Shown here piece after piece: positions 22,031-44,849 of a stretch of DNA of 64,000 bases. A program made the position numbers and the translations under genes. Location of the stretch: NCBI GenBank assembly GCA_036785705.1, contig JAWUZG010000033.1:496001-560000 (forward strand). Reading direction: 5' to 3'. The DNA is from Acanthornis magna (Eukaryota > Chordata > Aves > Passeriformes > Acanthizidae). Below the pieces are notes generated by a model. It was given only the letters and a program-made list of their open reading frames with translations. It did not search any database and was not told where the DNA came from. Numbering within the stretch: the first letter of the stretch is position 1; the number at the start of each line of letters is the position of its first letter.

Positions 22031-25010
22031 TAAACCACCTTTGGTTTTCTCCTTTAGCTGAGAAAATTGCGTTTTATTTTGTAAATTAAGGTAGAAAAAA
22101 AGGGAGTGAAACTGTGCATTTTTATTTGTCTCTGGTTTTACCATCTTTTACAGATGCACAGTCTTCCACATTGTCATATTTACCAAATAAGAACAGAAGA
22201 AACTCAAAATGTTTAAGGGCTTTCTGGAAAAAGCACATGAATTTCCTTTTTATCTATTTTGATTCCTAAGAAAAATAAACACACAGTTATTTTTAGAATC
22301 ATTTCGATTCTGTGAATCTTTCTGGACTATAACAAGCAGAAATTCCTATGGAATTAGGTCACTTCACCTTCACTTTTTTTTTTTTTTTTAACAAAATATC
22401 CCATTGTGATAACTATATCAATAAAATGTCTCTTTATTTACCTGTCAATGCACAACATGGCGTGGAAACACAAATATTGAAATACTGCACTGTGGAAGAT
22501 AAAGTTTTATTTTAAAAATGTTACATGGCTGTGATGTGACTGGTTTTTCTGGGCTTGAGGACAAAATTTTTATGCATTTAGGCATGATAGATGCAGATGA
22601 TTTGAATTGCGGTTAATCTAAACTTTTAATTTTTCATGTTTCCTTAGCATATTTTTGGGGAAAGCTGGGATGCCAATGTTAGTGTTTCTCAAGTAATCAT
22701 TTGCTGGCTGGAGCTGGGTTCACCCAACAATGCAAGGTTCAAGGAAATCTCAAGGATAACTGATTTTTATCCTGCTCATTAAACAGCTTTACAGAGAACT
22801 GAGGACCACTGAACCAATATGATTACTAAAGCTGTCGGGGGGGAAATGGAAGACCATTAAGAAAATGCGGAATGAAAAAAGCAAATACCACTCATATGGC
22901 AGCTAAGACAGATTTTCATTCAAAACAAGGCTTTTTAATGGATTTTTTGAATCCTTTGAAAAACTTCTCTATTGCTCTCTAATTCATTTTTGCTTAGCTT
23001 AAGCAAAAGGTGAATTAAATTTTGTATTTAGTGTCATTCACTGTAGTTAAATAAGCATCATTCACCATAATAGCTTTGTAGAACACTTGATGCTTCAAGA
23101 ACACATAAAAACAGAGGAGAAAAGAACCCTTAAATATAAAACCATTTTAAAGTCCCTTGTCATTTGAAGGATACTATCAAAGGATCTTCTACAAAAGATG
23201 ATTCAAAGTGATATATGCAAAAATCATTTGCAGAATAGATTTTTCTCATTTACCTAGCACTTTCCACATATACAGTCTGTTGTGCACATGAGGTCTATCC
23301 CACAGCAACCTCAAGCAGATACTAGTGCTTTATAAGAAAATTGTGATGGTAACCTCTTTAGTCTGCTTTATCTTTAGAATGGGTTGTAGCGAAGAGGTGG
23401 AAGAAAATACTGAGATTAAGAAAAAATATGGTTCTTATTAATAACTTTACATCAATTTATACTGACTGACTGACTGACTACATTGAAATTGTTAGGTTAA
23501 AGAATCTACATCGCCAAGATTTTCTGAACATCTCAATATCTACCACTATGCCCATGCTTTTAGTATAGTTCAACTCACATCCAGAGCCTCATAAAGTTTT
23601 ATTAAGAAAAGCATAAAGCCTCAGCACAATTCCAGTTTAAGTGCCTAGATCTTAAAACAGTTGCTGGAGAGCTCCTGGCATCTCTGCAAAGGATTTACAA
23701 GTATCAGAAAACTGAGCCACTTTATTTCCATGTAACACAGATGGCAGGGCAGGTCTATTTCTTTTCTACAGATGTGGCAACATCTATGTCACGATCTTTT
23801 TTGGTGTTGCATTTCTTCCCCATACTATTTTTCTTTCATTTTTATTAAGTTATGAGTCCTTCAGGATATATTTATGTTGTATATAGAAATATTCCCATTT
23901 TGTAAATATTCTTATTGTGCAGTAAAGACTGGGAGCAAGCCTTTCTCATTATCATTTTATATATTCATTAATGTTTGAAGACTAAGCACTACTTATAGAT
24001 AAAATGCAAAATACCAGAGGATTCCCACCAGCATCTCTTCAGGATAATCAGTTCTTCTGTGGATTTGTAGTGGCAGTGAATTGCATGAGAACAGCATTTT
24101 TTTCAACAACAAGGTTATAAAATCAGGTTGTGTTATTAAAACTTGATGTTTATTAAAAACAAACAAAAAGTTTTCTCCATTACTTTAAATTCATAGTGTG
24201 AGAGCTGAAAAAACAACCTACTTCTTATTTTATTTACAATGTTTTATCTACCTCTAGTAACCAGAAGAATTTATTTGTCTGTGACAAACTGTGATTGTTA
24301 AGGTTGTTTGACTTATATGAAATAATCTTTGGCACAGTTCAAATCCCTAGAAGTAGCCAATTTAAACAAATAAGCATCTAAATGAATTTTAAAAAATAAA
24401 AAAGAAAAAAAACCAAGCTAGAATAAAGTCCTGCTGAGTTACATTTCTCTTAATAGTTGTTTCCTAATGGACTTTAGAAGACTATTTGACAGGATGGTGT
24501 CTATATTCTGATGATGTCAAAATGTCAAATGAAAATCCACCTCTTTTAGCAGGAAAGTAATATGTTTTCAAAAATGCAACACAGCAGCTGGCATTCTGCC
24601 TGGTATCCAGAGAACTGAGAGAAAATCCTTTGTGGTCCTAACATGGAATTAGTATTTACACAGTCTAATCCTGAGGAGGGGAGAGAGAACAAACAAAACA
24701 AACTGATATACCTGTGGTCTTAATCAGTAAAATATCAGACTTTTTCCTCCTTAATAATGCTTAAAACCAACCTAATGAAACTGGATATTATTATTCTCCA
24801 TTAACTCTAAATTGTCATTTTAAGGCTTGGCACCTTGAAATAAAAAAGGCTTCTGATGATTTATTTTATTTCTTCTTGCCATCCCTAACCAGAAAACCTC
24901 CAAAAACTAAAAAACATCAAGAAAAATATGAAACAGAACTTCCATGTGTTGTCAGTGTATTTCATTCAAACCTGGTGTGAATATTAATTTCTTTTTTTTT
25001 TGTTCTCCAG
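22031..25010. other. AT-rich non-coding DNA
   Basis: No supportable gene. It holds a T run at 22,374-22,389 and a short ACTG tetranucleotide repeat (about 23,460-23,480). The stretch ends in a T run at about 24,992-25,001, immediately before base composition switches to GC-rich. Confidence 0.6.
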
Positions 25011-26567
25011 ATCCTTAAAGCAGAAGCCTGTATCAAAACTTAGATAGGCAAATCTCCCCCACGCGTGCACAAGTTTACGGGCACTTGGAAGCCATGCTGG
25101 GGGTGAGGTTGGGCTGGCTTGGGGAGGGGGCTGGGACAATTTGGGTGGCTTTTTGGGGTGTCCCGGTGTCAATCCCCACCCCCAATCTCGCCCCTCCTCT
25201 GGTGCCCTCTCCCCCATGCCGATGACACCAATGTCACCTGCACACCTGAGGAGTCTCTGGGGGGTTCCACACCGAGAGTGTGACGGGACAGGCACAGTTG
25301 TGGGGGCTGAGCCGGGCGTGGGGACAGAAGGGCTGATGGCACTGTCTGCACTGTGTCCCTGCGGCCTGTCCTCCAGACGCTGAGGGGGCAGGAGCTCCCA
25401 CCCCTCACTGTCACCTTTCCCTGTCCTTGAGGAAACAGGGACATTGTTGAATGCCATCACCGTGTGTGAGGGGAGAGTGCAGTTCCAGGCACTGGGGACA
25501 CAGGGAACACTCTGTGCCTCCCGATGGGACCTCTCGGACACCCACGTTCTCTGTGGCCACCTCAAGTGCTGGTTTGCCAGGTCCATTCCCGAACTTTGGG
25601 AGGGAAACCAGAGCTGTCTGGAAGGACTCGTTCCACTGCCATGGGACTGAAGCCCACCCGGAGCAGTGCCCAGTGACTGCCCTGGGGCCTCACTCTGCTC
25701 CCACGGGAACGCTGCTGCTGTCCTTGGCTCAGGTGAGTGTTGGGAAAATTCCACCCCACCCGCAGGGGCTGCCCAAGAGCCCCCAGCAGCAGCAGCAGCA
25801 GCCGGGGGCTCCCCAGGGCAGTGACATCTCTGCTGTCCCCAGGCCCTGCTGTCTCCGTGTCCCAGCCTGGACAGAGCCCATGTGTGTGTGTGCCCGTGGG
25901 TCTGTGCTGCAGGAGATACCCGCAGCTCTTGTGACCTGCACAGCAGAGCAGCCGCAGAGGGAACAAGATGGGGCCACTTGTGCTGTCCCTGGGGCTGTGG
26001 GGGGATCTGCAGATGTGTCCCTTTCCCTGTTGGAGCTGCTCTGGCTATGCTCAGCTGTGTCCATCTGGGTTTCCTTGCAGATGCTGCATTCAGCACTTTC
26101 CCTCTGGGAGTCTCCACCTTGGCTGATCTGTGCCTTCATGGGGCTCCAGTCACTGCCCAGCCCAGGCACACACAGGCCTGCAGATACTCTGCCTTGTCCA
26201 GGCAGCTCCAGATTCTTCTCCTGGAGCACATTCTGTGCCCTGTGCCACGTGGGACACCCCTGGGTACGTACCTCAGTCACCTGTCACCATCTCCACCGTC
26301 AGCACACAACAGTGGCTTTGCCCAAATCAAACTCTTGGCCTTTAGCAGCTGCCAATGTCAGCACTTTCCCTCTGCACAATCCATGGAGCTACAGAGGCTT
26401 TTTGGGGGGAAATTCTCTTGGCTCAAATTGACATGAGCTTGGAAAAAGAGCCAAAGCTTCAGGCAGTGCCCTGGGGAGATCTCACTTTATTGCCAAGATG
26501 CTCTGAGAGCAGCAGCTCTGGGCCCTGTCAGACACACTCTGGAGGCTCCAGGAGGGACTGAGCTGCT
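25011..26567. other. GC-rich non-coding sequence, left part of GC block
   Basis: Composition changes abruptly near 25,015 from AT-rich to GC-rich. The stretch contains a (CAG)6 run near 25,784-25,802 and long stop-poor frames on both strands (up to 377 codons on the minus strand at 24,984-26,117). These have low-complexity Pro/Ser/Gly-rich translations and no domain I recognise. A minus-strand AATAAA at 26,491-26,486 lies about 80 bases beyond the stop of the olfactory-receptor fragment and may be its old poly(A) signal. Confidence 0.55.
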
Positions 26568-26861
26568 TCATCCTTGGTAGTCATTGGAATCCAAATATTC
26601 ATCTAGGGAAATAATAAACACAAATAACAATACAGCTAATGATACTGAAATCAGTTTTCTGATGGCCTCCTTGAGCTCCTGGTTCCTCAGGCTGTAGAGG
26701 AGGAGGTTCAGTGCTGGAGGCACCACTGAGTGCAGAAGTGCCACCAGCAGATCCAGGGATGGCAAGGAGATGCACGAGGGCTTCAGATGGGCAAACACAG
26801 CAGTGCTGACAAACAGGGACAGCATGGCCATGGGAGGGAGGTACGTGCTGGGCAGGCACAA
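26568..26861 (-). pseudogene. Olfactory receptor C-terminal fragment
   Basis: The minus-strand frame encodes the end of a rhodopsin-like odorant receptor. Visible in order are: STYLPPMAMLSLFVSTAVF, matching the TM6 block usually written STCLPHLAVVSLFVSTA; an extracellular loop 3 with LKPSCISLPSLDLL; then TM7 with PALNLLLYSLRNQELKEA, matching the family signature PxxNPxIYSxRNxELK. The Pro of the NPxxY motif is replaced by Leu. Homology stops abruptly just upstream of STYLPP (plus strand about 26,850). TM1-TM5, the MAYDRYVAIC region and the start codon are absent, so only about 80 of the usual 310-320 residues remain. The tail after RKLIS is longer and more hydrophobic than usual. The type resembles the large OR14-like group expanded in birds, by memory only. 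It is a dead fragment, not an intact receptor. Confidence 0.85.
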
Positions 26862-29017
26862 GTGGGCTCCTCCCTACAGCCACTGCAGAGCCCTGTTGGG
26901 ACACCTCGGGTGCCGCGAGGGCAGCCAGGGATGGCAGTGACTCCTCAGGAAGGCAGGGAGGAGGGTGAGGAGCTGGACAGGAGCTGTGAGCAAAGGCAAG
27001 GCTGGTGTGCACAGAGCCTTTCCTTGGAGGAAGCCTCATGCTCACAGGTCCTCAAGATCACAGGGATTGCCACCCCACAGTGTGCTGGGAGGGCAGCAGG
27101 GCTGGGCACAAAGCAACCCAGGAGAGCCCAGGGGGTGATGGGGACAACATCTGGACAGGGATGGTGGAGGGGCTGACAAGGACTCCTTTCCTACAGACAA
27201 GGTACATGCAAAACTGCCATTGGATGTGGGCAAATGAATTCATTGGATTAATTTGGTCTCATGAGGGAAGCAGACATTGGTGGCCACCTTGGGCGCAGCG
27301 ACCATGGAGCAGCTGAGTTGAAAGTCTCTGTTGACAGGAGGGAAAGAGCCACCAAACCTTCAACCCTGGGCATGAGGAGAGCAGATGCAGCAGCTCAGGG
27401 AACTACCAGTGGGTAACGTCCCCTGGGAAAACTCTTAGGAAGGTGCTGGGGTCACTCTTGAAGCACCACTCCCTAAGGGCACAGGAACAGGCAATTGCTG
27501 AGGGTCAGAAGTGAAGTAGGTGAGGGTGGGCAGAGGTCAGGGCAGGGCTGGCAGTGGCAGGGCAGGGCCAGGGGGACAGCGAGATGGGAGTGTGCAGCCT
27601 GCAGGGACACAGCAGCAGCTGTGGGACAGCGCAGGACAAGCTGTGCTGGACATGGCCAAGGGCCCTGGCCAGGCTGGCAGTGCCCAGGAGAAGTCAAGTC
27701 TCGGTGCCCTGGGCCACAGCAGCGTCTGTGCCACCAAGGGCTGTGAGGAGACACCTTGTCCTGAGGCCCTGGGGCCTCCTGGCACAGCCCCAGCAAGGCT
27801 GGGCACTGTCACCCCCTTGTCCTGCTCTCAGCATCCTCCCCACATCCCAGTGGCCCAGCAGAGCCCTGAGCAAGGCAGGAGGGACAGGATGTGCCTTCCT
27901 CGGGGCTGGGGCTCAGGCCTTGGCCTTTCTGCTGCCTCCAGTGAGCCCAGGCTTGCTTGCTTATCTCCCTCATTCTACAATTTCAAGATGATTGCCATCT
28001 ATTTTTTTTCCCAGTTGAAAAATGCCCTTTGGAATGAACAGTTCCAGGTGGCTGTGTTGGGGTTGACCCTCTTGCCCTCCATCGGGTGGGTCCCAGCCCC
28101 CTCCTGCTCCCCTTGGGGGTCCTACTGTCTGCTTTTCCTGCTCTCTCCTACTCTCCCATTTTCCCCCCACTTCCCAGCCCCACCTCTCTTAGTTTGGGGT
28201 GGTTTTGGGGCATTCCACCCACACTTCCCCCCCTCTTCTCCTTTTTCCCACCACCCCTCTCCCTCCCTTCCTGCTCACCCCAGAGCTCTTTGCCCGCACC
28301 AGGCCCACCGGGCTCCCCCCGCACTCAGCCTCCCCCTCCCCAAATTCCACTCCCGGGGGGCACTGGGAGCAAGGGGGGTGCAGGTGGGGCCCAGACATGC
28401 CGGAGCCATGTGTCCCCCCGCTGCCAGTGCCACCCTGGCAGGATTAGGGGTACCCAAAACTCCCTCAGATGTGGGGATACCCTGCAAGCCCCTAAGGAGT
28501 GGGGTCCCCCCAGCTTCATCACCCCGAACCTTCAGCTGCCTCATCCCAGGCCCCGTCCCACCCATCCCCCTCCCCCAGACTTCATCCCACACCCCAATGC
28601 ACACCCCACCCTTCCCAGGCCCCATCCCACCCCATCCCACCCCATCCCACCCCGTCACATTTTTCCTGGCAGCTGCCACCGGGACCCCCCAAAAAACTCG
28701 CGTCTAGGGGACACCCCAACATCCCCCCAGGGGCATGTGCGACTCGCACTCGGAATCCTGCAAGATCCAAACATCCGCCCTCTCCCCCCAGCCCAAAGAA
28801 AACCCCTCCCAGCAACCAACGAAGACATTTGGGACTCGGTGCTGGAGTCTTCCAAGGCCCAAAAACTCCCCCCTCCTAAAAAGAACCCCAAGGACTGGCC
28901 AAGATATTTGGGGCGAGCTCCCCCTGTCCGGTCACCCGCGGGATGCAGGGGGGCGATGCTCCCGGGGCCGAGGGCTGCGGACACAGAGAGCGATGGACGC
29001 GCGTGACAACTCCTTCT
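26862..29017. other. GC-rich non-coding sequence
   Basis: No recognisable coding region. Both strands have long open frames (for example 27,520-28,707 plus, 395 codons), explained by high GC and scarce stop codons. Translations are Pro/Gly/Ser-rich and the alternative frames are equally open. The right part (about 28,540-28,670) is C-rich, with repeated CCCATCCCACC units. Sequence upstream of the olfactory-receptor break does not resemble a receptor in any frame. Confidence 0.55.
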
Positions 29018-29212
29018 GCAGCTTCTCTTTCTGCTCCTCTATCCCTCCTCTACCTCCCACTCCTCCTCCTTTATGTCTCCTCCCCGCCCTGCTCCTGCTC
29101 CTCCACCTCCTCCATCCCTCCTTCCCCCACTGCGCTTTCTCCTTTTCTGTACCTCCTCCTCCTCTCCTGCCCTCTCCTCCTCCTGCTCCTCCTCCTTCTC
29201 CTCCTCCTGTTC
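29018..29212. repeat. Polypyrimidine (TCC/CTC) tract
   Basis: Almost 200 bases of C and T dominated by CTC, TCC and CTCCTG triplet units. Such tracts can form triplex structures and slip during replication. The complementary strand gives an Arg/Glu/Gly-rich open frame (29,071-29,259) that should not be read as a protein. Confidence 0.85.
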
Positions 29213-29615
29213 TTTGGCACTCCCATTCCAGCTTTGTCTGACATCACCCCCGGGGCCATCCCGTGCTCAGCAGAGCATCCTGTGCTCTGTCAGCCCTCTC
29301 TGCTGCTTAGGGAAGGATTTGGGATTTATCCCGGGCACACACACTGATCCTCACCCCAAACTGCCCTGCTCCCATTGCTGTCCCCTGGGCGCTGGGCAGG
29401 TGCTGTCCCAGGGGAACCAGGGACACAAAGGAAGCCAACTCCAGCCCAGCTGCCCGGGCTGATCCAGACGAGCCCCAGGGACAAGGTCCTGCAGAGCCCC
29501 ACGGAGCCCTGGGCTCCTCCCTGGGAACGAGCTGTGTTGTGGCTGCCCCAGCGGCCACAGCGAGTCCTGGAGCTCCCCCAGCGCTGCTGCAGCAGGACCC
29601 AGGTGCCACCTTCTG

Positions 29616-29912
29616 TGCCAGGCCCTGCCCAGGGGCCATCAGATCCATTGGCTCCGTGCAAAGGGGCAAGACAAGAAGAACGGATTGGAGGCAGCCCCCA
29701 AGGACCTCGAGCAAATTGTTCAGGAACATGCAGACCTTGAGCTGACGTGTGCAAAGCTGCAGCTGGCAGAGTTCTGTGGTGCAGGAGACCCAGCACGGGA
29801 AGAGGAGACCTACAAGGTGCTGCAGGAGAAACACCCTGAGGCTCAAAGGCCATCGTGCCCTGAATCTCTGCCGGAGAAAGTTCTTCGTCTCTGGGAAGAG
29901 ATCCCGGGATAA
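29616..29912 (+). CDS. Unrecognised short open frame, possible exon relic
   Basis: A plus-strand frame runs through IHWLRAKGQDKKN, then from the Met at 29,685 (MEAAPKDLEQIVQEH...) to a TAA at 29,910-29,912. Unlike the surrounding GC-rich frames its translation is a balanced, charged, helix-like sequence (DLELTCAKLQLAEFCGAG, then REEETYKVLQEKHPEAQ and EKVLRLWEEIPG), which looks more like real protein. I do not recognise the family. No convincing splice sites or promoter frame it. About 80 bases after the stop an LTR fragment begins, carrying an AATAAA at 30,071. It may be a relic exon or chance. Confidence 0.25.
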   Translation, partial: CQALPRGHQIHWLRAKGQDKKNGLEAAPKDLEQIVQEHADLELTCAKLQLAEFCGAGDPAREEETYKVLQEKHPEAQRPSCPESLPEKVLRLWEEIPG

Positions 29913-29989
29913 GGCAAAAGCAAAGTTCATGGCTGGTGACAAGATTCCCGTGCAGAGAGAGCAGAGGAGGGACTGCGGGCGGAGGCTGG

Positions 29990-30155
29990 GAGCCCGGGAG
30001 GAGGGAGGGGTGGGGAGGGTGTTTTTAGGGTTTGTTTTAGTTCTCCTTCTCCTACTGGGATTTCTTTAGAAATAAATTCCATTACTTTCCCCAGCTTGGG
30101 TTTCTTGTGTACCTGATGGTGAGCAGTGAGTGACTTCTCCCTGCCCTTAGCCCAG
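29990..30155 (+). mobile_element. LTR fragment (R/U5 part), same family as solo LTR
   Basis: The phrase GGGTGTTTTTAGGGTTTG, then TTCTCCTTCTCCTACTGGGATTT, AATAAATTCCATTACTTTCCCC and GAGTGACTTCTCCCTGCCCTTA, corresponds to the R/U5 section of the bird LTR family represented by the copy at 4,230-5,295, here in plus orientation. The poly(A) signal AATAAA is intact at 30,071-30,076. Both the U3 and the terminal CA end are missing, so this is an internal LTR fragment. Confidence 0.7.
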
Positions 30156-31184
30156 CCCAGGAGCCTTTCCTGCTGTGTTCTGTGTCCTGCACCTGTGAGG
30201 AGAGTGCCAGAGCGGCTCTGGTGGCACCGGGCACCCGGCCAGGGCCAGTCCAGTCCAATAATCCCTGCCATTCATTCCCTGCACTCCATCCTGAAGCGGC
30301 TGCAGGGCGGGTCCGGCTGCGTGGGCAGGCAGCTCCAGAAGCACCAACTGCGCCAAACGAGACAGAAGGAGGAGGCAGGGGGTGCCGGGGGGTGAATCTC
30401 CTTCCTCCGAGCCGGCAAGGACAGGAGGGACAGACTGGAGAAAAGGAAACAGGAGAGGGGGGACGAGCTGAGGGACGAGGGAAGCTGCAGGAATGCAGGG
30501 GCACCTGGGAATTTAGTTTTCCAAATCTCTGGGGTGAAAGGAAGCGCTGTGAAATCCGTCATGGAAAAGAAAGGAGAAATAGCGATTGATGGAAATCGAC
30601 TCAGTTTATCCCTGTGGATTGCAAAGCTGACAGACGCCGAGCGCCGGCGGACACGCGTCACCGATGTCACGTCCCAAGGGATCAGAGCTCCGTCTGGTGG
30701 GGCTGGAAGCTCCGTCCAGCAGCTCCATTCCCGCCCCCAAAGCTCAGGCTGGACCGTGGGGTCTGGGACACAGCCCCGTGCTGGGGGCAGAGCCGCTGCT
30801 GGGGCCATCGCTGTGTCCAGGGCATCCTTTATGTCCCTCGTGCAGCTCCGAGCTCCCGAGGGCTCCCCGAGGCTTTCTGGGGCTGTCCCTCCTCCCCAAA
30901 TCTGTTGGGTTTAATGGCCGAGTGCGGCACCCCGTGCCCTGTGGCAGCAGCCGGTGCCGGGCCACAGCCCCGGGAGCCGAGCTAATGCCCGGCCGTGCCC
31001 GGGAGGGGCTGAGGGCAGGGGGAGTTCATAAGGCACCCCCAGCAGCCCTCGCTGTGCTGAAAAGGTATTTTAGCGCATAGGGGTGATTTCCTGGGGTTTC
31101 GGGGCTCCGTGGGGTTGCGGCGGCGGCAGCGGGACCGGCGGGGCCCGGCCCGTGGGGGCGGCCGGGGTTGAAAAGTGCGCGGCG
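30156..31184. other. GC-rich, CpG-rich non-coding sequence
   Basis: No gene recognised. GC and CpG content rise from about 30,640 into the island at 31,080-32,190. A TTCATAAGGCAC motif near 31,024 could pass for a weak TATA box, but nothing downstream supports a transcript. Long overlapping frames on all strands are composition artefacts. Confidence 0.5.
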
Positions 31185-31440
31185 GCGCCAGCGCGGTGCG
31201 TGAGGGCTGAGCGGAGCTGGGTGGGAACAGCCCCCGGAACCCCCCCGGTGCCCGAGGGCTGAGCGGAGCTGTTGGGAACAACCCCCGGAACCCCCCGGTG
31301 CCCGAGGGCTGAGCGGAGCTGGGTGGGAACAGCCCCCGGAACCCCCCGGTGCGTGAGGGCTGAGCGGAGCTGGGTGGGAACAGCCCCCGGAACCCTCCGG
31401 TGCCCGAGGGCTGAGCGGAGCTGGGTGGGATCACCCCGCT
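31185..31440. repeat. 51-bp GC-rich tandem repeat, about 5 copies
   Basis: The unit reads GAGGGCTGAGCGGAGCTGGG, then TGGGAACAGCCCCCGGAACC and a CCCCGGTG(C) junction. The GAGCGG anchor occurs at 31,209, 31,261, 31,311, 31,362 and 31,413, spacings of 52, 50, 51 and 51 bases. Copies differ by a few substitutions and small indels; copy 2 has GTTGGGAACAACC. The repeat lies inside a CpG island and accounts for repetitive open frames on both strands. Confidence 0.9.
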
Positions 31441-31559
31441 CGTCTCCGCCGCTCGAAGCCCTTCCCCGGCTCCGGCTGCCGCCGCCGCTCGGCCCCGGCT
31501 CGGTCCCGGGGGTCGCCGCTCGTCGCGACTCTGGAGGGGTCGATCCGAGCCGCGCCCCT

Positions 31560-31920
31560 CCCGTTCCTCGCTGCGGCTCTTTCGGTGACACGGAGCAGCC
31601 GAAACCCCCCGGTGCCGCCCCGACGGTCCCTCGGTGCAGCTTTTTTAGTCGCAGGCAGCGGCCACTCCCGGTGCTGTTCTTTTATAATTTTTTCTCTGAA
31701 TCTCTATATTTTATTCTATTCGCACCTCCCATCCCACGCCCCTCCGCCGCGGCTCTTTCACCGCCGCCGCTGCTCGCCGGTCTCTCGGTGCAGCTCTTCA
31801 GTGGCACGGCCGGCAGAGACGCCCCTCAGTGCGGCTCTTTGATTGTATTTTATTCTTTTCTCTGTCTTTTCTGTCGTTCGCACCTCGCCCGTCCCGCGGA
31901 GCGACTCCTTCAGGGTCCCG
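31560..31920. repeat. Imperfect repeats around CGGCTCTTT motifs
   Basis: The motif GCGGCTCTTT occurs near 31,573, 31,750 and 31,832, and CTCGGTGCAGCT near 31,631 and 31,784. Two T-rich patches ending in TTCGCACCTC (about 31,700-31,730 and 31,850-31,886) are also related. This suggests an old, diverged duplication of 80-180 bases within the CpG island. No function is evident. Confidence 0.5.
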
Positions 31921-32189
31921 GGGCGGCACAAAGCCCTCGGGGCAGCTCCAAAGGGCCCCGCCCGCGGCCGCTCCCCGAGGCCTCCCCGCTGCTCGCGGGG
32001 ATCGGACACCGCCGGCGGCCCCGGCCCTTCTTGTTCTTCTTGTTCTCCTTGCTCCTGCCGGGATTCAGCCCCCGCCGCCGCCCGGCTCCTTCTGCCGGCC
32101 CTGCCCGGCACGGAGCGGCGCTGCCGCTGACGGGGCCGGAGCGCGGCTGCGACACGACTGCCCCGCGCCTCGGGACCGGGCCGGGGAGT

Positions 32190-32605
32190 GACCGCACGGG
32201 TGGGGAGGGACCCCCGCTGGACAGGAGAGGGACTGAGCCCATGGGAGGGACCCCCGCTGGACAGGGCAGGGAGTGACCCCATGGGAGGGATCCCACGCCG
32301 GAGCAGGGGAAGGATTCCTGCCCCTGAGGGGAAGCAGCGGCAGGAACTGACCGTGACTCCCATCCCTTCTCTCTGCACCGCTGGGCAGAGCACGGAGGGA
32401 GCTGGGGATAAAGTGAAGTCTGTGAAGGGGAAAGAGGTCGGGAGAAGGTGTTTTTCAGGATTTATTTTATTCCTCACTCTCCTGTTCTGATTTGCTGAGT
32501 CCCAAATTCAGTTCATTTCCCCACGTCGGGGCTGTTGTGCCCGTGATGGCAATCCCTGAGTGACCTCACCCTTCCCTTATCCCGACTCACAAGGACTCGG
32601 ATTTG
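32190..32605 (+). mobile_element. ERV LTR fragment, plus strand
   Basis: It shows the U3 pattern of the same LTR family as the copy at 4,230-5,295: repeated CCGCTGGACAG and CCCATGGGAGGGA blocks, ACGCCGGAGCAGGGGAAGG, CAGGAACTGACCGTGACTCC, then GAGAAGGTGTTTTTCAGGAT, CTCTCCTGTTCTGATTTGCTG and CCCGTGATGGCAATCCCTGAG. The position where other copies have AATAAA reads GAGTCCCAAATTC here, so the poly(A) signal is lost. The 5' end and the terminal CA end are not visible. Confidence 0.75.
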
Positions 32606-33267
32606 TTTCAATTCCGTGGAATTGACTGTGATTTGGGGCAGCCACAGCAAAGCAGCTGGAAACCACAGGGGGCTTGAGAGGGACTAAAGCAGGGCAGGAG
32701 TTGAGGCTGCCCCGAGGGAACTCTTCCAACACGAACCTTCGTGGGGTCTTTCTACGGGAATTTTATTGAACTTTTACACTCACCATTACAAATCAGAATG
32801 AAAAGTGGAGCTGAGCTTTCAACTGGAAATGAAGGAATCCAACGTGTGCTCTGGGACCTCTGCAACCTCAAGTTGTTACTTGATACTTTAGTTTCGGAAA
32901 TATTCAGCCTCACAGCATCAATGTCTCTCTCAGCCGACTGGTTTCTGGCTCAGACTCAGCTCAGAGATCGGACAAGAAACTCTAAGCCCCATCAGAACAA
33001 ACCCTGCCGTTATTTCCTTTTTTTATAGTAATGTTATGCTATTTTATTGTATATTCTATTTTACTTTTATTTTTGCTTTTATTTCTGTTTTTTTCTCCTT
33101 CTATAAAATCGTGGTTTTGCTCGACTTCACCCACACATAGCCTTTGTTGTCCTCCCAGAGGTTTGTGGTGAGTTGCTGCCTCACTGGTTCTCCCCCAGAA
33201 ACCAATGAAATTAATCAAAATAATGATGAATTTTTGAACTCTTTCTGCTGCAGTTTCCAGAAGGCCC
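32606..33267. other. Mixed-composition spacer, possible LTR relic
   Basis: Composition falls from GC-rich to AT-rich here. On the minus strand a TTCAATAAAATTCCCG motif (about 32,756-32,772) followed by GTAGAAAGACCCCACGAAGG could be an R/U5 end of another LTR. A T-rich zone (33,017-33,100) and TATAAAATCGTGG (33,101-33,113) follow on the plus strand. I find no paired ends or target duplication, so this stays unassigned. Confidence 0.35.
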
Positions 33268-33914
33268 TGTTATAAATGAATTCACAAGCTGAAATTTTAG
33301 CAACATAATATTGAACATTTATTAATAGAGCAAAGGCAAAAACAGCACTGGGCGCTTAGCAATTTTGCCAGAGGCACAATCCGTTCATTTTACTGTGAAC
33401 TTAAGTACTTTCTTTAACTGTTACATATTGATTAAGCCTAGAAGGTAATTTACACTTCACTCAACTCTCCCCCCTCTGGTCCCTGCCCCCTTCTGCTAGC
33501 TCGGCGCCTGTCTTGGAGTCTTGGATCCTCTGGATTGCCTCAGAACTGAAGGCAGAAATCCTCCCGTGTATGTTTCCTCAGTTCCAACTTAATTTGTAGT
33601 TGACAGTTCCTTTGGGAGGTGTGACTCAAGAGAACAGACTTCCTGGGATGCCTGTGGTTATCTTCTTTGTTTCTTTAAGATGTCTTGATCCCTGGCTCTG
33701 TGGTTTATCAGTTTAAAAGACATTTATTACCATGTATTTATTACTACATTTTCTAACATATTACAACTATTTCGAAGTTACAATTCACCCTAACCTTGTT
33801 TCTACTTAATTATATTTTATCTTAACACTATTTTTTTACACAGTACATTATCACTTGTAACTGTTAAATTCATGTATGCGAAAGCCAGCATTTATCATTC
33901 ACTCATTTATCACA
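33268..33914 (-). mobile_element. ERV LTR with terminal inverted repeats
   Basis: Ends are well defined: plus strand starts TGTTATAAATG and ends CATTTATCACA, so the 11-base termini are inverted copies differing at one base. Flanking 5-mers are GGCCC (33,263-33,267) and GTCCC (33,915-33,919), a target duplication with one mismatch. The minus strand is sense: AATAAA (from CATTTATTAATAG near 33,320) lies close to the 33,268 end. At 647 bp with no internal genes this is a solo LTR. It sits directly against a degraded copy of the MHC class I-like promoter, so it entered that duplicated region. I recognise the GAACATTTATTAATAGAGC phrase as songbird ERV sequence. Confidence 0.75.
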
Positions 33915-33998
33915 GTCCCGGGATATCACAGTCCCCGATATCCCAGACGGGGCCGGGAGGGGGTCCCGGTGCCGGGGGCACTCAGCGGTCGCTGGGTG

Positions 33999-34043
33999 GA
34001 TCCCGATGGCGCAGGTTGGGAGACACGACAGTGCCCGAGGGAG
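33999..34043 (-). promoter_or_regulatory. Degraded second copy of MHC-like promoter segment
   Basis: GATCCCGATGGCGCAGGTTG followed by GGAGACACGACAGTGCCCGAGG closely matches 34,911-34,957 (GATCCCGGCGGCGCAGGTTG, then GGAGAGACCAAAGCC...GTGCCCGAGG). The copy lacks the ISRE-like core and, further in, the CRE and CCAAT elements. It is a partial duplicate of the upstream flank of the class I-like promoter, cut short by the neighbouring LTR. No exon follows it. Confidence 0.65.
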
Positions 34044-34059
34044 CGCGGGGGGCGGGGGA

Positions 34060-34690
34060 AGAGGGGGTGCAAGGGATTATCGGTGCAGGATAAGGGGGCT
34101 CAGGGGGGTCTCCGTGCCGGGGATGGAGGTGCAGGGGGTCCCCGTGCACGGCAGTGGGGGGTTCACACCTGGGTATGGGGGTGCAAGGAGGTCCCAGTGC
34201 CGGGAATGGGGGGGCAAGTGGTCCTGTTGTCGGGGCACGGGGGGCAGTGGGGGTCCCTGGCCCCGAAATAATTTCAGGGGTGTCCCAGGGCCCAGAAATG
34301 GTGGATCAGGGGGTTTGCTGGGACGGGGAATGTGGGTTTAGGGAAGTCCCCTTCCCGGGAATGGGGGTTCAGGGAGGTCCCGGTGCCCGAGAATGGAGGT
34401 TCAAAGAGGTCCCCATGCCAGGAATGGGGGTTCAGGGACGTCCTCGTGCTAGATAAGAGGGAACAGCGTGTCCCGGTGCTGGGTAGGGGGATGCAGGGGG
34501 TCACAGTACATAGGAATGGCAGTTCTGGGGTATTCAGGGAGATCCCGGGACTAGATAAGGGGGAACATGGGGGTTCTGGCGCTGGGGAAGGGGATGCAGG
34601 GGGGTCACAGTACTCAGGAATGGGGGTGGAGGGTGTTCTAGTACCTGGAAATGGAAGTTCAGGGAGTTCCCAGCGCCCAGGAATTGCGGT
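34060..34690. repeat. G-rich minisatellite in presumed intron 1
   Basis: Diverged units of roughly 29-34 bases, of the form GAATGGGGGTTCAGGGAGGTC followed by CCGGTGCC, recur across the stretch (AATGG anchors at about 34,295, 34,327, 34,358, 34,392 and 34,421). It lies immediately downstream (minus sense) of the leader-exon donor site, where class I intron 1 would be. Runs of four to six G could form quadruplexes. No class I alpha-1 exon is visible inside it. Confidence 0.75.
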
Positions 34691-34723
34691 GTGAGGGTTC
34701 CCGGTGCCGGGGGTCCCACTCAC

Positions 34724-34792
34724 CTCTGGCTGTCCCTTCCCCGTGTCCCACAGGAGCCCCAGGAATGTTCCCAGCCCCAGCGCTGGAGCCAA
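34724..34792 (-). pseudogene. MHC class I-like leader exon (exon 1) remnant
   Basis: On the minus strand the 23 codons read LAPALGLGTFLGLLWDTGKG and then QPE, followed by a perfect splice donor, GAG|GTGAGTGGG (intron from 34,723). The APALGLG..LGLL core matches songbird MHC class I signal peptides as I remember them. Class I exon 1 encodes the leader that sends the heavy chain into the endoplasmic reticulum. Two defects show: the expected ATG is TTG, and the exon ends in phase 0 whereas class I exon 1 normally ends in phase 1, implying a small indel. The hydrophobic core is also interrupted by WDTGKG. No alpha-1, alpha-2, alpha-3 or membrane exons are found downstream to 33,900 or anywhere else in the window. 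I infer a pseudogene fragment. Confidence 0.65.
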
Positions 34793-35230
34793 GGCGCTGC
34801 TCCGCCGCGGCCCCGCCCCCAGAGCCGCCTCCGGCCCCGCGATTGGCGCCGCTCTTTCCTGCCCGCCAATGGCAGCTTCAGTTGTTCCTGACGTCATCGG
34901 ACGCCGGGCAGATCCCGGCGGCGCAGGTTGGGAGAGACCAAAGCCAAAGTGCCCGAGGAGGGGAGAGGGGAATTCCGGGAATTCCGGGAATTCCGGGGAA
35001 TTCACCTGGATCCCCTCCTGGGATCCCTCTGGGACCCTCCACGGCCACGCACTGCGGGACCCCCGGGCCGGGCGGTGCTGAACTCGCGGGGCCCTGCGCT
35101 CAAGCTCTGCCCGGAACTCGCTGCGCTCGGCCCAAAGCGGGAGAAGCATTCGGATCCAGCTGTTCCTGCGCCTGCGGGTCCCCATCCGCGACGGAGCAGG
35201 ACTGGGCGCTGTGACCCCGATCCCTGACTC
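34790..35230. promoter_or_regulatory. CpG island at MHC-like promoter
   Basis: CpG density is high from the GC box through the region upstream of the kB repeats (for example CGCTCGGCCCAAAGCGGG near 35,124). This overlaps the class I-like promoter and fits a housekeeping-plus-inducible promoter of that family. Confidence 0.6.
34809..35003 (-). promoter_or_regulatory. MHC class I-like promoter (kB, ISRE-like, X2/Y, CCAAT, GC box)
   Basis: Read on the minus strand towards the leader exon, elements come in the order known for MHC class I genes. First, four 9-bp tandem GGGAATTCC-type NF-kB sites (35,003-34,967). Second, an ISRE-like site (34,949-34,938) where both GAAA cores have become CAAA on the plus strand. 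Third, an X2/CRE box TGACGTCA (34,896-34,889), preceded by GATG as in X1 boxes. Fourth, a Y-box ATTGG (34,870-34,866), 18 bases after the CRE, the X-Y spacing expected for RFX/CREB/NF-Y binding. Last come a second CCAAT (34,846-34,842) and a GC box (34,820-34,809). The X1 body matches only loosely and I cannot place an S box. Confidence 0.65.
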
Positions 35231-35930
35231 CCGATCTCCTTCTCTCTCCCTCTGTCTTCTTCTCTCCCTTTCCTTTGGGTGATCAGAAATCCCAGGGCGG
35301 CTCTAGAGCCCCGTGCCCAGTTCGGGTTCCCAGGAAAGGGAGGCCTGGGGGTGAGGTGAGCTGGGACGGCCGGGAATGGGGGTCCGGGGGTCCCCGGGGT
35401 CAAGGAAACAGGGGATCCAGGGACCGGGAGAGGCGGATACCCGGGCGAGGGGGTGCGGGGGGTATTGGTGTAGGATAAGGGGGTGCGGGGGTTATTGGTG
35501 TAGGATAAGGGGGTACAGGGGGTATTGGTGTAGGATAAGGGGGTCCGGGCTGTCCAAGTGCCCAGGAATGGGCATTCAGAGGGGTCCCAGGGTCAAGGAA
35601 AAGAGGGGCTCCCCAAAGCCCCCTCCGGGAGTAGCAGGAGCTGGGTCAGGAGCTCAGTGGGAGAGGAAAGGGGGGGATCCGGGGGGTCACACACTCCGGG
35701 AGGGACACGACCCCCGGGGTCCCCCCATCACCTCCTCCCGCAGGTGGAGGCCGAGCCCCAGCCCAGGCAAAGCCCCGCACGAAGCCCCCGACCCCTGTCA
35801 ACATCTTGGGGGGCGTCCAAGATGCTGACAAGATGCCCGTCCAAGATGCCCGGCGGCAGCTCCGGGGGGTGGGGGAATGGGGCACGATCCGGGAAACGGC
35901 AGCAGCTGCCGGCAAGGGACCGGGACAGGC
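35231..35930. other. G-rich spacer upstream of MHC-like promoter
   Basis: A pyrimidine tract (35,233-35,277) is followed by G-rich sequence with a 30-bp repeat (35,451-35,540). A pyrimidine-rich run ending CCCGCAG|GTGGAGGCCGAG near 35,742 looks like a plus-strand splice acceptor. The frame after it (VEAEPQPRQSPARSPR) is not a domain I recognise, so I do not call an exon. Confidence 0.45.
35451..35540. repeat. 30-bp tandem repeat, 3 copies
   Basis: Three units with exact 30-base spacing, each beginning GGGTGCGGGG (or GGGTACAGGG) and continuing GGTATTGGTGTAGGATAAGG. Related single units occur at about 34,065-34,100 and 36,590-36,625, so the same motif is dispersed through this G-rich domain. 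Confidence 0.9.
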
Positions 35931-36400
35931 TGGGATGGACTGGGACAGACTGGGACACCAGGATACACCGGGAACAGGACTGGAACCCAGCAGGTCCATA
36001 ACTGGGGCAATAAGGATCATAGTGGGAGCCACTGGGATATACTGGGAGTGACTGAGTGTCTGGAATGATACTGGTGAAAATTGGAACCTTACTGGGACAA
36101 CTGGGTGTGACTGGGAATGACTACAAGTACGCTGAGGGCAACTGGGATATACTGGGAGTGTCCCTAACCGTACTGGAGGTGACTGGGAACACTGAGAGTG
36201 ACTGGGAGTGGCAGGGTCTACACTGGGGACAACTGGGATTGACTGGGACCATGCTGGCTGAGACTGGGATCATACTGGACTCATACTGGGATCATACATG
36301 GAATGACTGTGTCTATGCTAGGGGCAACTGAAAGCAACTGGGATTAGACTGGGAGGAGCTGGGAGCAATTAGGACCATGCTGGGGACAACAGTCAAGGGA
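35930..36400. repeat. ACTGGGA-type minisatellite, forward orientation
   Basis: Diverged units of about 10-20 bases centred on ACTGGGA, with variants ACTGGGATATACTGGGAGTG, GACTGGGAACACTG and TGGGATCATACTGG. I recall such arrays from introns and flanks of genes in GC-rich songbird DNA, including MHC genes. The array is not coding. Confidence 0.85.
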
Positions 36401-37160
36401 AGGGGGGTGCAGTGACTGGGAGAGGTGGGATGGGGTGCCCAGGGAATCCTGTGCCCAGGAAAGGGGTGCCAGGGATCCTCAGTGTGAGGGAAGGAGGGGC
36501 AGGGGGCTGGGAAATGCAGCAATGGGGGCCAGGGTCAAGGCAAAGGGTGGCTCTGGGGGCTGGGAGAGGCAATGTGACTGGGAAAAGGTTGTGTTGGTGC
36601 CGGATGAGGGGGTGCAGGGGGGTCTCAGTGCTGGGGAAAGGGAAAAAGGGCATCTCGGTTCTCAGGAATGGGGGTCCAGGGGGGTCTCAGGGTCGAGGAA
36701 ATGGCAGGGCAGGGTCTTGGAGAGGTAGGAGGGAGTTCCAGGGGGTCTTTGTGCCCAGGAAAGGGGAGTCCAGGGTTTCCCAGAAAAGGGAGGTAACAGG
36801 GTGGGGACACCTGGGCTGTCCTGGAAGAGGGAGTTCAAGGGCTCTCTGGTTTTGAGGAAAGGTGGGGCTGGTGGCTGGGAAAGGCAGGAATGGGAGTCCA
36901 AGGCATTCCAGGGCATCCCAGGGTCAAGAACATGGAAAGTCTGGAGGCTGGGAGACACAGGATGGCCGGGAAAAGGGGAGCAGGGGCATCCTGATATGGA
37001 GAAATAGGGGATTTGGGGGGCCCTGTGCAGGATAAGGGGAGCAGGAGGATCACGGTTCCAGGAACAGTGGTTCAGGAGATCCCCGTTCACAGAAATGGCA
37101 GTTCAGGGGATCCCAGTTCCACGAATGGCGGTTAAGGTGATCCCAGTTCCAGGAATGGCG
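36401..37160. repeat. G-rich degenerate repeats between the two inverted arrays
   Basis: About 30-40-base degenerate units containing GGGAATGGGGGTCCAGGG, GGTGCCGGATGAGGGGGTG and GTCAAGG...GGGGCTGGGAGAGGCA. These resemble the minisatellite at 34,060-34,690. Long open frames on both strands here are repeat artefacts. Confidence 0.65.
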
Positions 37161-37515
37161 GCTCAGGGGTTACAGACACTCCCAGTGTATCCCAGTTGTC
37201 CTCAGCATGTCCTTAGTCATTCCCAGACACTCCCAGTGGTCCCAGTAAGGTGTTGGTTATCCCACTATGATCCCAGTCACCTCCAGCATGATCCCAGTTC
37301 ATTGCAGTAGGAGCCCAATTGCTTCCAATCACCCCCAGGATGCACCCAGCCACTCCCAGTTCCTCCCAGTTGCTCCTAACATGATCCCAGTTGCTCACAA
37401 CTGCTCCCAGTCACCCTCAGGATGATCCCAGTCACTCCCAGTATATCCCATTTGCTTTCAACATCGTCTCAGTTGCCCTCCCCAGGCTGCTATTCACTCC
37501 CAGTATGATCCCAGT
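37161..37515. repeat. TCCCAGT-type minisatellite, inverted orientation
   Basis: Diverged units centred on TCCCAGT (GATCCCAGTCACTCCCAGTA, TCCCAGTTGCTCCTAACATG). This is the reverse complement of the ACTGGGA array at 35,930-36,400, so the two form a large imperfect inverted repeat around 36,400-37,160. The GC-rich block ends here. Confidence 0.85.
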
Positions 37516-41724: not shown

Positions 41725-42452
41725 TCGAAAAAGGTTGGCTGAGGGTGTGTTCCCAAGGCTCAGAGAAGGTTGGCTGAGGGTGTGTTCCCAAGGCTCGAAG
41801 AAGGTTGGCTGAGGGAGTGTTCCTAAGGCTCGAAGAAGGTTGGCTGAGGGTGTGTTCCCAAGGCTCGAAAAAGGTTGGCTGAGGGTGTGTTCAAAGGCTC
41901 AGAGAAGGTTGGCTGAGGGTGTGTTCCCAAGGCTCGAAAAAGGTTGGCTGAGGGTGTGTTCAGAGGCTCAGAGAAGGTTGGCTGAGGGTGTGTTCCCAAG
42001 GCTCAGAGAAGGTTGGCTGAGGGTGTGTTCAAAGGCTCAGAGAAGGTTGGCTGAGGGTGTGTTCCCAAGGCTCAGAGAAGGTTGGCTGAGGGTGTGTTCA
42101 AAGGCTCAGAGAAGGTTGGCTGAGGGTGTGTTCCCAAGGCTCAGAGAAGGTTGGCTGAGGGTGTGTTCCCAAGGCTCAGAGAAGGTTGGCTGAGGGTGTG
42201 TTCCCAAGGCTCAGAGAAGGTTGGCTGAGGGTGTGTTCCCAAGGCTCGAAGAAGGTTGGCTGAGGGTGTGTTCAAAGGCTCAGAGAAGGTTGGCTGAGGG
42301 TGTGTTCAAAGGCTCAGAGAAGGTTGGCTGAGGGTGTGTTCCCAAGGCTCAGAGAAGGTTGGCTGAGGGTGTGTTCCCAAGGCTCAGAGAAGGTTGGCTG
42401 AGGGTGTGTTCCCCAGGCTCGAAGAAGGTTGGCTGAGGGTGTGTTCCCCAGG
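41725..42452. repeat. 34/35-bp minisatellite, 21 copies
   Basis: The unit is GGTTGGCTGAGGGTGTGTTC followed by CCAAGGCTCAGAGAA. I count 21 copies of GGTTGGCTGAGG. Units with TTCCCAAGG are 35 bases; units with TTCAAAGG (or TTCAGAGG) are 34. Between about 41,840 and 42,120 the two types alternate strictly, giving a 69-base higher-order dimer. Because 69 is divisible by three, this creates a 117-codon open frame that is a repeat artefact. Similarity between copies is very high, so the array is probably polymorphic in length. Confidence 0.95.
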
Positions 42453-44849
42453 CATGGGCTGCAGTGTGGTTGTGTCCATCACTTGCCCTGTCCAGCGTGC
42501 AGCACACCCATCGTGTAACTGCACATATGTACACACCTGTCCTGTGGCTGTAGAGCACCACAGGCCTTTCCTGCAGCTCTTCTGCCTGATCAAATAATTG
42601 CGTTCTTGTACATCAGCATTCAGGGATCTTGCAAAGCTTTGTCCAGTAGGAGGTAGAACTTGAAACGAGTAAGTCAAACTTGAAAAGATCTTTAAAACAT
42701 ACTTAAGAGTTTTTTACTCTTTGGAACAAAAAGAGTGCTGGATTGTTATCAGGCATAAATGGGTATAATTTGTGAGTACAAAGAAATGCAGGCAAGTTTG
42801 TTGACTCATTGCAGTTGTTAGACAAGCAATAATTTTAGTTAGATTGTAATGAAAATTAAATGTCGTGTCATGTTCCCCTCGCTTCTCCCCTGGCAAATTC
42901 ATTAGCTGATTAGTCAAAAGGCATAAATAATTCCTTTACATTTACATTCCGTTTTGCCAAGCGATATGGATTTTTCCTTCACACATACAAAGAAATTAAA
43001 CTGACTAATAATGAAATCAATGACCATGCTTAACCATATAAAGAACCTTTTAAAACCAGAATATAAAGGTGGGTCCTGCACAAAACAATCTGAATTTCCT
43101 ATCAGAATAACAGAATGGAGGTGGTCCGGACACAGCTGGTTGGTTCCTTCTCATTTCTGATGGCCTTCAGGCAGGCTTACGCTCTTTGATCCAAATGAAC
43201 AAAATACAATTTTTTTTTGGTCTTAGATCATCAGGTTTTCCTGTGCATATTTTTGTCTACAGAGGCCTATTTCTATCCAGGAGAAGGAAGTGAAGGGGTG
43301 AGTGTTTGCTTTTATACACATATTCATTCCATCTTGCAGGACGGGTGATGTGCCAGTATCCTCCAGGAGAAAAGGCAGAACTCAGAACATCTGCACAAGA
43401 ATGGTTTTTATACATTCTAGAATGAAATTGACCTGATACTCTATATCTAATGATTTAATCTACAGAGAATTGTATCTATTCTATCTATAGACTCTACAGA
43501 GTCTATCATCTCTCTCCTCCCTTTCTGAAGGGAGTTACAGAAAAAAGACTGGGAATTGAAAAGGAAGTTAAGTGCCTCATACTCACAGACCCTTTCATAA
43601 TCAAAATTTCTGTTATATCATGAGCAAGTATTTAAACACATCTTCAGTGCAAGCCATTTCTAAATGGTAGAAAGGCTACCCCAAAGCTGCTAAGGGGTTA
43701 TTACCATTACAGTAGAGTCATTCAGGCAATTCTATTTAATTTGATTTGTTTTCTGTTATACTTCCAGATACGTTTCAGCCATACGATTCTTTTTGTTTGG
43801 AGTCTAATCCATACCTCATTAAATCTGATCAACTTGCATTTAAATAGTTCTGGACATTATTTGCATCAATGTATATCAGTGGGATGTAAGAGACAGGATT
43901 TAAAAACCCTCTTTGGGTCATTAAGTGAGGACCTTTACTATCACACCTGAGCCTATCTTAGAATCCTGTTCATTAGCTGATCAAACTGTAATTTAAAACC
44001 AAACTTACTTACTCTCCTGCATCTATAGAATCTAAATTTGATTCTTCTGAAGGTCAGAGAGTAGCAACTGGATAATCTGTCCTTTTATCTCATAGGCAAG
44101 TAGTACTACGCATCAAATCACTGTTAGAATACATACGTTTCCACAGATAGATAAGATTTGTGTAAGAATGTTTAAAATTATTTTGTAAAATTTGGTGGTT
44201 TTCTGAATTTTTGAGATTCTGTATATAACACTTCCTTCTAACATGGAAGCAACAGTGGCTTTTTCTTTCCCTCTGCTGACCTCTCATTCACTGATACACC
44301 TTCCCTCATGGCAATCTAAAGCACTGCCCACAAAAGATGCTTTGCCGTGTGTTGAATCTGTCAAGCTTTTAACTAGTTTCTCCTCAGGTGTCCACTGGAG
44401 ATGAAGCAGGTTTTGAACAAATGTGTCTCGGGGCCTGTTTGTTGGCTAATTTTTCATCTGAGTTTCCAGCTGCACCAGCAACCTGAGCAAGGAAAAAAGA
44501 AGGTGATTTTCAAGACAAATTCTCACTGAAACAGAATAAGCAATGCAGTGTTTGCTATTTGTCTTTTGAGATAAATTACTTTAACCAGTTCCCTTCATCT
44601 GTTGTTTAGTTATCCCTATGTTCATTTAAATCACCAGCAGTACAAAATTTGTCTGGAAATACAAGCAGAGATCTTTTAAGCACATTTTTCTTGTACTTCC
44701 TAGAAATTAAACCAAAATTTCTATTTCTGCAATAGGGAATTTCTAATTTTGAAACAGTCGGGGGTCAAAAGTCATTCATAACACTGACAGTGTCTAATAA
44801 TCTTAAAAGTAGTTCTGTTTCATTATGAGATAATAAAGTAATCAAATAA
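42453..44849. other. AT-rich non-coding DNA
   Basis: No recognisable gene, RNA or mobile element. A small inverted repeat (AGACTCT/AGAGTCT) lies near 43,488-43,504. Confidence 0.55.

Follow-up and report, generated by a model that had tools for sequence, protein, structure and literature searches.

Control elements and leader exon at the locus

The window, by which we mean the whole 64-kb stretch of DNA analyzed here, carries on its minus strand a series of elements that runs from 35,003 to 34,718 in the order kB-like 9-mers, ISRE-like site, X2, Y, CCAAT, GC box, leader and splice donor. All of the elements that a sequence-only reading of this DNA had listed are present in the order it gave, but the details of its GATG, kB and ISRE sites needed correction. 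In the position of enhancer A are tandem kB-like 9-mers (GGAATTCCC/GGGAATTCC; 35,003-34,967), with GGAATTCCC units at 34,994-34,986, 34,985-34,977 and 34,976-34,968 (minus strand, as are all promoter and exon coordinates below), making up a 9-bp tandem array of 3.9 copies. The description of these as tandem kB sites holds insofar as three 9-mers lie in tandem, but one unit alone satisfies the 10-bp kB consensus GGGRNWYYCC, and three 9-mers are also reached in 12 of 100 shuffles, so that the count is not significant by itself. The ISRE-like site, the degenerate TTTGGCTTT at 34,948-34,940, is weaker than had been implied: the strict consensus (GAAANNGAAA) is absent, and only the degenerate AAAGCCAAA was found. 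Because the ISRE between enhancer A and the SXY module takes only this degenerate form, we call the locus a decayed remnant rather than an intact class I promoter.

Farther along the strand, GATGACGTCA (34,898-34,889) is the X2/CRE box of an SXY-type module, and its codon register is shared with three avian class I records. Both GATG and TGACGTCA (34,896-34,889) are present as had been noted, but GATG overlaps TGACGTCA rather than preceding it, the two together forming GATGACGTCA. The ATTGG Y box at 34,870-34,866 does lie 18 nt past X2, exactly as described, and three further motifs, the second CCAAT (34,846-34,842), the GC box GGGGCGGGG (34,819-34,811) and the GTGAGT splice donor (34,723-34,718), were likewise read correctly. 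The X2, Y, CCAAT, GC and kB elements appear intact enough that they could bind RFX/CREB/NF-Y/NLRC5 and NF-kB. CpG observed/expected is 0.77 across the promoter and exon 1, compared with 0.42 in the intron-like array, a retention that would fit a young relic as well as a promoter that is still unmethylated in the germ line.

Between the GC box and the donor is an exon 1 remnant of 69 nt (34,792-34,724; frame LAPALGLGTFLGLLWDTGKGQPE). At 34,792-34,790, where the start codon would be expected, it has TTG and no ATG, which confirms the lost start codon of the earlier reading. The frame itself, previously called leader-like, does match class I leaders: LAPALGLG here corresponds to the MAPALGLG of class I records, and the class I leader peptide APALGLG...LGLL is present. 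A MAPALGLG leader is found in 53 of the 119 records that were among the best listed for the antbird query P0114, as against 0 of 119 other records from the first search, and since P0114 itself begins MAPALGLG, this fraction describes passerine-like records and not all birds. It is the leader that points to a passerine as the bearer of the locus. Among the records listed, the leader end GQPE resembles manakin records such as P0134, and the 5'UTR is closest to Sylvia, a mixture compatible with either a suboscine or an oscine.

Exon 1 also seems to end in the wrong phase at this donor. The residue before VLHS, in 106 of 119 records, is K in 62, E in 26, R in 14, P in 3 and L in 1. In the three records with P, intron 1 seems to have been read through, which would split the V codon after its first base; on the strength of these three we would expect exon 1 to end in phase 1. 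The distance from TTG to the donor is 69 nt, which gives phase 0.

Homology to avian class I records

Motifs alone are insufficient to identify such a locus, and class I identity was therefore settled by homology. The frame tested comprises 79 residues, the promoter and exon 1 read in the leader frame. It was compared with 238 proteins, made up of the best 120 of 806 records for a composite class I query and the best 120 of 716 for the P0114 query (P0001, which is in both lists, is counted in the first set, and the control of 119 in the leader comparison is the first set without P0114). The frame aligns with P0154, a class I record of Sylvia borin, at 64% over 67 columns (6 gaps; window 34,933-34,751) with 75.1 bits, whereas 500 shuffled frames, run against those 238 proteins, scored 32.7 bits at best. 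P0154 is a class I isoform record whose prediction runs upstream into its own promoter. It is also the top match when the 238 proteins are run against the window by tblastn (34,990-34,751, 78.6 bits), a search in which 85 of the 238 queries match the promoter/leader place at E<=1. The reversed window gave a best match of 45.8 bits, to a low-complexity extension of P0227, and because it produced 161 hits against 347 in the real window, we treat tblastn hits below about 46 bits as no evidence. Low-complexity matches of P0227, P0095 and others were also obtained in the window itself.

P0070, a class I record of Grus americana, aligns through X2 and Y with a score of 108; the highest score among 500 shuffles was 60. 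The number of residues from X2 (MTS/VTS) to Y (IG) is identical in P0154, P0133 and P0070, which argues that the X2-Y spacing is conserved; P0227, which reaches equally far upstream, is without that residue count. The segment where S and X1 boxes would lie aligns with P0154 and P0070. The sequence-only reading had taken the arrangement of enhancer A, ISRE, SXY and exon 1 for that of a class I gene. Its order holds, with a degenerate ISRE, and the alignment confirms a class I 5' end: promoter, 5'UTR and leader, read in frame, all align with avian class I protein records. The alignment of 34,700-35,050 to songbird class I sequence that had been suggested was carried through at the protein level, where the frame matches class I records; all homology comparisons are to predicted proteins, and this window is the only bird genomic DNA covered.

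Two negative results belong with this alignment. When the promoter and leader frame was used to query the whole protein collection, nothing was returned at E<=10 among 728 candidates. Scored directly at that collection's size, P0154 has an E value of 1.3e-9, and for this reason it probably lay outside the 728 candidates. In a limited literature search, no description of an avian class I promoter or of a passerine exon 1 was found.

The SXY motif also occurs in class II promoters (PMC3837245), and a class II B gene sharing that module might conceivably have supplied this 5' end. We reject this origin as very improbable: the 5'UTR and leader match class I records, and the passages of PMC3837245 on class II promoters describe NF-kB and ISRE sites as absent from them. 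With a passerine class IIB N-terminal sequence the score is 24, which 394 of 500 shuffles equal or better; this control is weak because no class II database record was among those retrieved. Even less credible is an unrelated CpG-island promoter with chance motifs. The locus does lie in a GC-rich block with many GC-rich reading frames, but the class I alignment, at 75 bits where 500 shuffles reach no more than 33, contradicts such an origin, and so does the exact X2-18-Y string (TGACGTCA-18-ATTGG), which is expected about 0.0019 times per 64 kb at the composition of the window and was found once. With two mismatches allowed, X2-18-Y is found twice, the shuffle mean being 1.0 and at least two occurring in 28 of 100 shuffles. 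The sequence-only reading had named a lack of avian class I likeness, or a better match to an unrelated CpG island, as what would count against it; what was found is an alignment of 75.1 bits to P0154.

The missing gene body and the repeats around it

The earlier reading held that the domain exons had been lost, and in agreement with it no MHC domain exon was recognized in the 64-kb window by either of two tblastn searches. With HLA-A2, passerine alpha-1 and HLA-DRB1 queries the best E value was 0.17, and with the 238 proteins no domain exon was among the 14 best clusters; very decayed exons could escape both searches. The match at E 0.17 is a short alpha-1-like string (PGPGVPQCVAV....GIP) at 35,072-35,019 on the minus strand, a short way 5' of the kB sites, and might be a scrap of exon 2. 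Its score against the 238 proteins, 58, is reached by 2 of 200 shuffles. Ten reading frames, that of the promoter among them, were chosen for Pfam searches. These returned no MHC domain, and the olfactory-receptor match and four other weak matches that they did return were all below cut-offs. No Rfam family reaches its gathering threshold in the 64-kb window.

Downstream of exon 1, the minus strand continues into about 600 nt of intron-1-like, GC-rich imperfect repeats (34,717-34,121). Part of this stretch, 34,417-34,322, resembles the read-through that precedes VLHS in P0161, a class I record (53% over 32 residues, E 9e-5), a match that would suit intron 1 yet is no stronger than composition gives in the reversed window and is thus not clearly above composition. 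At 34,120-34,061 (minus strand) the repeats are closer to 5'-flank arrays than to the intron-like ones, and we propose that this is the junction zone. Beyond it, at 34,040-33,982 on the same strand, the promoter core occurs a second time in decayed form (75% identity to 34,894-34,958), without kB, X2, Y or exon 1. This copy lies 0.9 kb downstream of the main one; its score is 55, whereas 1000 first-order Markov controls reached no more than 36. Upstream of the better of the two promoter copies, the 5' flank carries a repeat array at 35,610-35,370 (minus strand). When self-masked windows were taken across the intron-like array, 16 of 18 were best or tied with other intron-like units, and the best match of three windows below 34,120, beside and into the second copy, was to the 5'-flank arrays; these windows overlap and are not independent. 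Two rows were dropped, 34,136-34,180 as it was not self-masked, and 34,106-34,150, which is outside the 18, for an 11-base overlap with the reference.

These repeats suggest a route by which the gene body could have been lost. GC-rich intron-1 repeats of one class I gene would have recombined with similar 5'-flank repeats of its neighbor, deleting the body between them and leaving the neighbor's decayed promoter as the second copy at 33,982-34,040. Recombination of this kind is the most likely way for the body to have been removed, although the repeats in question are short and of low complexity. The decayed second promoter copy, the probable splice-phase lesion and this likely route of loss are all additions to what had been read earlier. 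A break of the same appearance might instead have arisen in the assembly, where a misjoin or collapsed haplotype would have truncated a class I gene, itself intact, downstream of intron 1. The difficulty of assembling duplicated MHC genes of birds is described in PMC7875000, and the intron-like repeats here run out into AT-rich sequence. We nevertheless consider an artefact quite unlikely, as the window is without N, the exon itself is broken by its TTG, and the state of decay of the second promoter copy suggests that the rearrangement is old.

The wider surroundings are rich in repeats and composition changes. The stretch ~25,000-37,500 is a mostly GC-rich block within AT-rich sequence. Its GC per kb rises to as much as 0.70, an AT-rich gap interrupts it at 33-34 kb, and a search of its edges for a duplicated target site gave nothing convincing, the longest shared string being 9 bp. 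Adjoining the second promoter copy, ~33,930-33,266 on the minus strand is AT-rich and LTR-like by eye (TG...CA ends, AATAAA); for this stretch the search for a target-site duplication gave two 5-bp coincidences and one of 4 bp, none at the expected ends. Inverted copies of a CCCAGT-type repeat (80%) at 36,056-36,169 and 37,168-37,280 flank an array upstream of the promoter, and a 35-bp tandem array of ~21 copies with 93% matches occupies 41,731-42,453. On the minus strand, 26,571-26,873 is a fragment that looks like the C terminus of an olfactory receptor, although its match to Pfam 7tm_4 (E 0.001) stays below the curated cut-off. The minus strand at 31,743-31,609 matches the Empidonax traillii class I prediction P0141 over residues 360-403 (56% over 45, E 1.5e-6). 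Those residues lie beyond the class I domains, and the match may reflect a repeat that also occurs 3' of class I genes. Class I proteins of the suboscines Pithys albifrons and Pseudopipra pipra are on contigs of 62 and 66 Mb, and class I genes in these species would sit on very large scaffolds.

Present state and comparison with known systems

In the reading that we consider likely, a passerine MHC class I gene has left only its severed 5' end here, comprising the promoter and 5'UTR, the leader exon and the beginning of intron 1. On this reading the leader is broken, the body was lost through recombination between GC-rich repeats, and what remains now serves at most as a weak start for non-coding RNA. 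The locus looks like a genuine, fairly ordinary gene relic, noteworthy for the apparently intact state of most of its control sites. An inert relic is the default expectation, and any present role would go no further than the weak, cytokine-responsive initiation of a non-coding transcript. Roles in class I promoters are described for NF-kB, RFX/CREB/NF-Y and NLRC5 (PMC3837245), and by analogy this promoter could be responsive to NF-kB and NLRC5. Because the ISRE is degenerate, a weaker response to IRF1 would be expected.

A more demanding possibility is that the locus is a non-coding gene like human HCP5, whose orphan promoter and leader exon are transcribed and spliced at 34,724/34,723 into non-MHC sequence, with the RNA kept for regulation. 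The core promoter elements and the GTGAGT donor survive though the start codon does not, CpG is kept in the promoter (o/e 0.77), and HCP5, which has such anatomy, is reported as NLRC5-induced in the account given by PMC6562477. We think this unlikely, given that no Rfam family reaches its gathering score within the window, that the ISRE is degenerate, and that the retained CpG and motifs may merely reflect a young relic. An independent bird counterpart of HCP5, in which a repeat deletion would have freed a promoter and leader that still respond to NF-kB and NLRC5 and drive an immune-inducible non-coding RNA, strikes us as doubtful to the same degree. If the locus is transcribed, the HCP5 arrangement arose more than once, and the idea that MHC turnover is a route to immune-inducible lncRNAs becomes testable. 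If it is merely a relic, it documents one mode of passerine class I break-up, in which promoter and leader are left and the body is lost between GC-rich repeats. In addition, promoters can be compared through protein predictions that extend into them: the crane, antbird and warbler records keep the X2-Y register of this fragment.

Compared with passerine class I genes (Sylvia, Acrocephalus, manakin), many of which share the APALGLG leader start among the records listed, the locus retains the expected beginning, and the records that extend far enough share its 5'UTR reading and X2-Y spacing. Unlike those genes, it has no ATG and no recognized exon 2 onwards, and its donor appears to be in another phase. 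Partial class I pseudogenes of the zebra finch are likewise passerine remnants with some exons only, and the fragments described in PMC2907588 comprise one exon 2, one set of exons 4-6 and one of exons 1-3. The fragment here instead ends after exon 1 and keeps its promoter; the terms 'promoter' and 'exon 1' are absent from the main text of PMC2907588. Chicken BF1 was lost by a deletion between imperfect 32-nt direct repeats, and its loss in the B14 and B15 haplotypes (PMC10514180) parallels the route proposed here in that a class I gene is lost between imperfect direct repeats with one end in the promoter. The BF1 deletion starts within enhancer A (PMC10514180), whereas here the promoter and exon 1 remain.

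With zebra finch partial pseudogenes and HCP5 on record, this type of fragment is already known. HCP5 is the closest known arrangement, and the locus resembles it in its first half. Both have a class I promoter, leader exon and part of intron 1 severed from the gene body and set beside other sequence, and both have kB, SXY and CAAT-type control elements (PMC6562477 for HCP5). HCP5 is a transcribed lncRNA joined to an identified ERV16 LTR (PMC6562477), whereas the locus here is known from DNA alone and its AT-rich neighbor is only LTR-like. It further differs from HCP5, as that source presents it, in its TTG first codon and its second, decayed promoter copy (PMC6562477). Any likeness between the two would be convergent.
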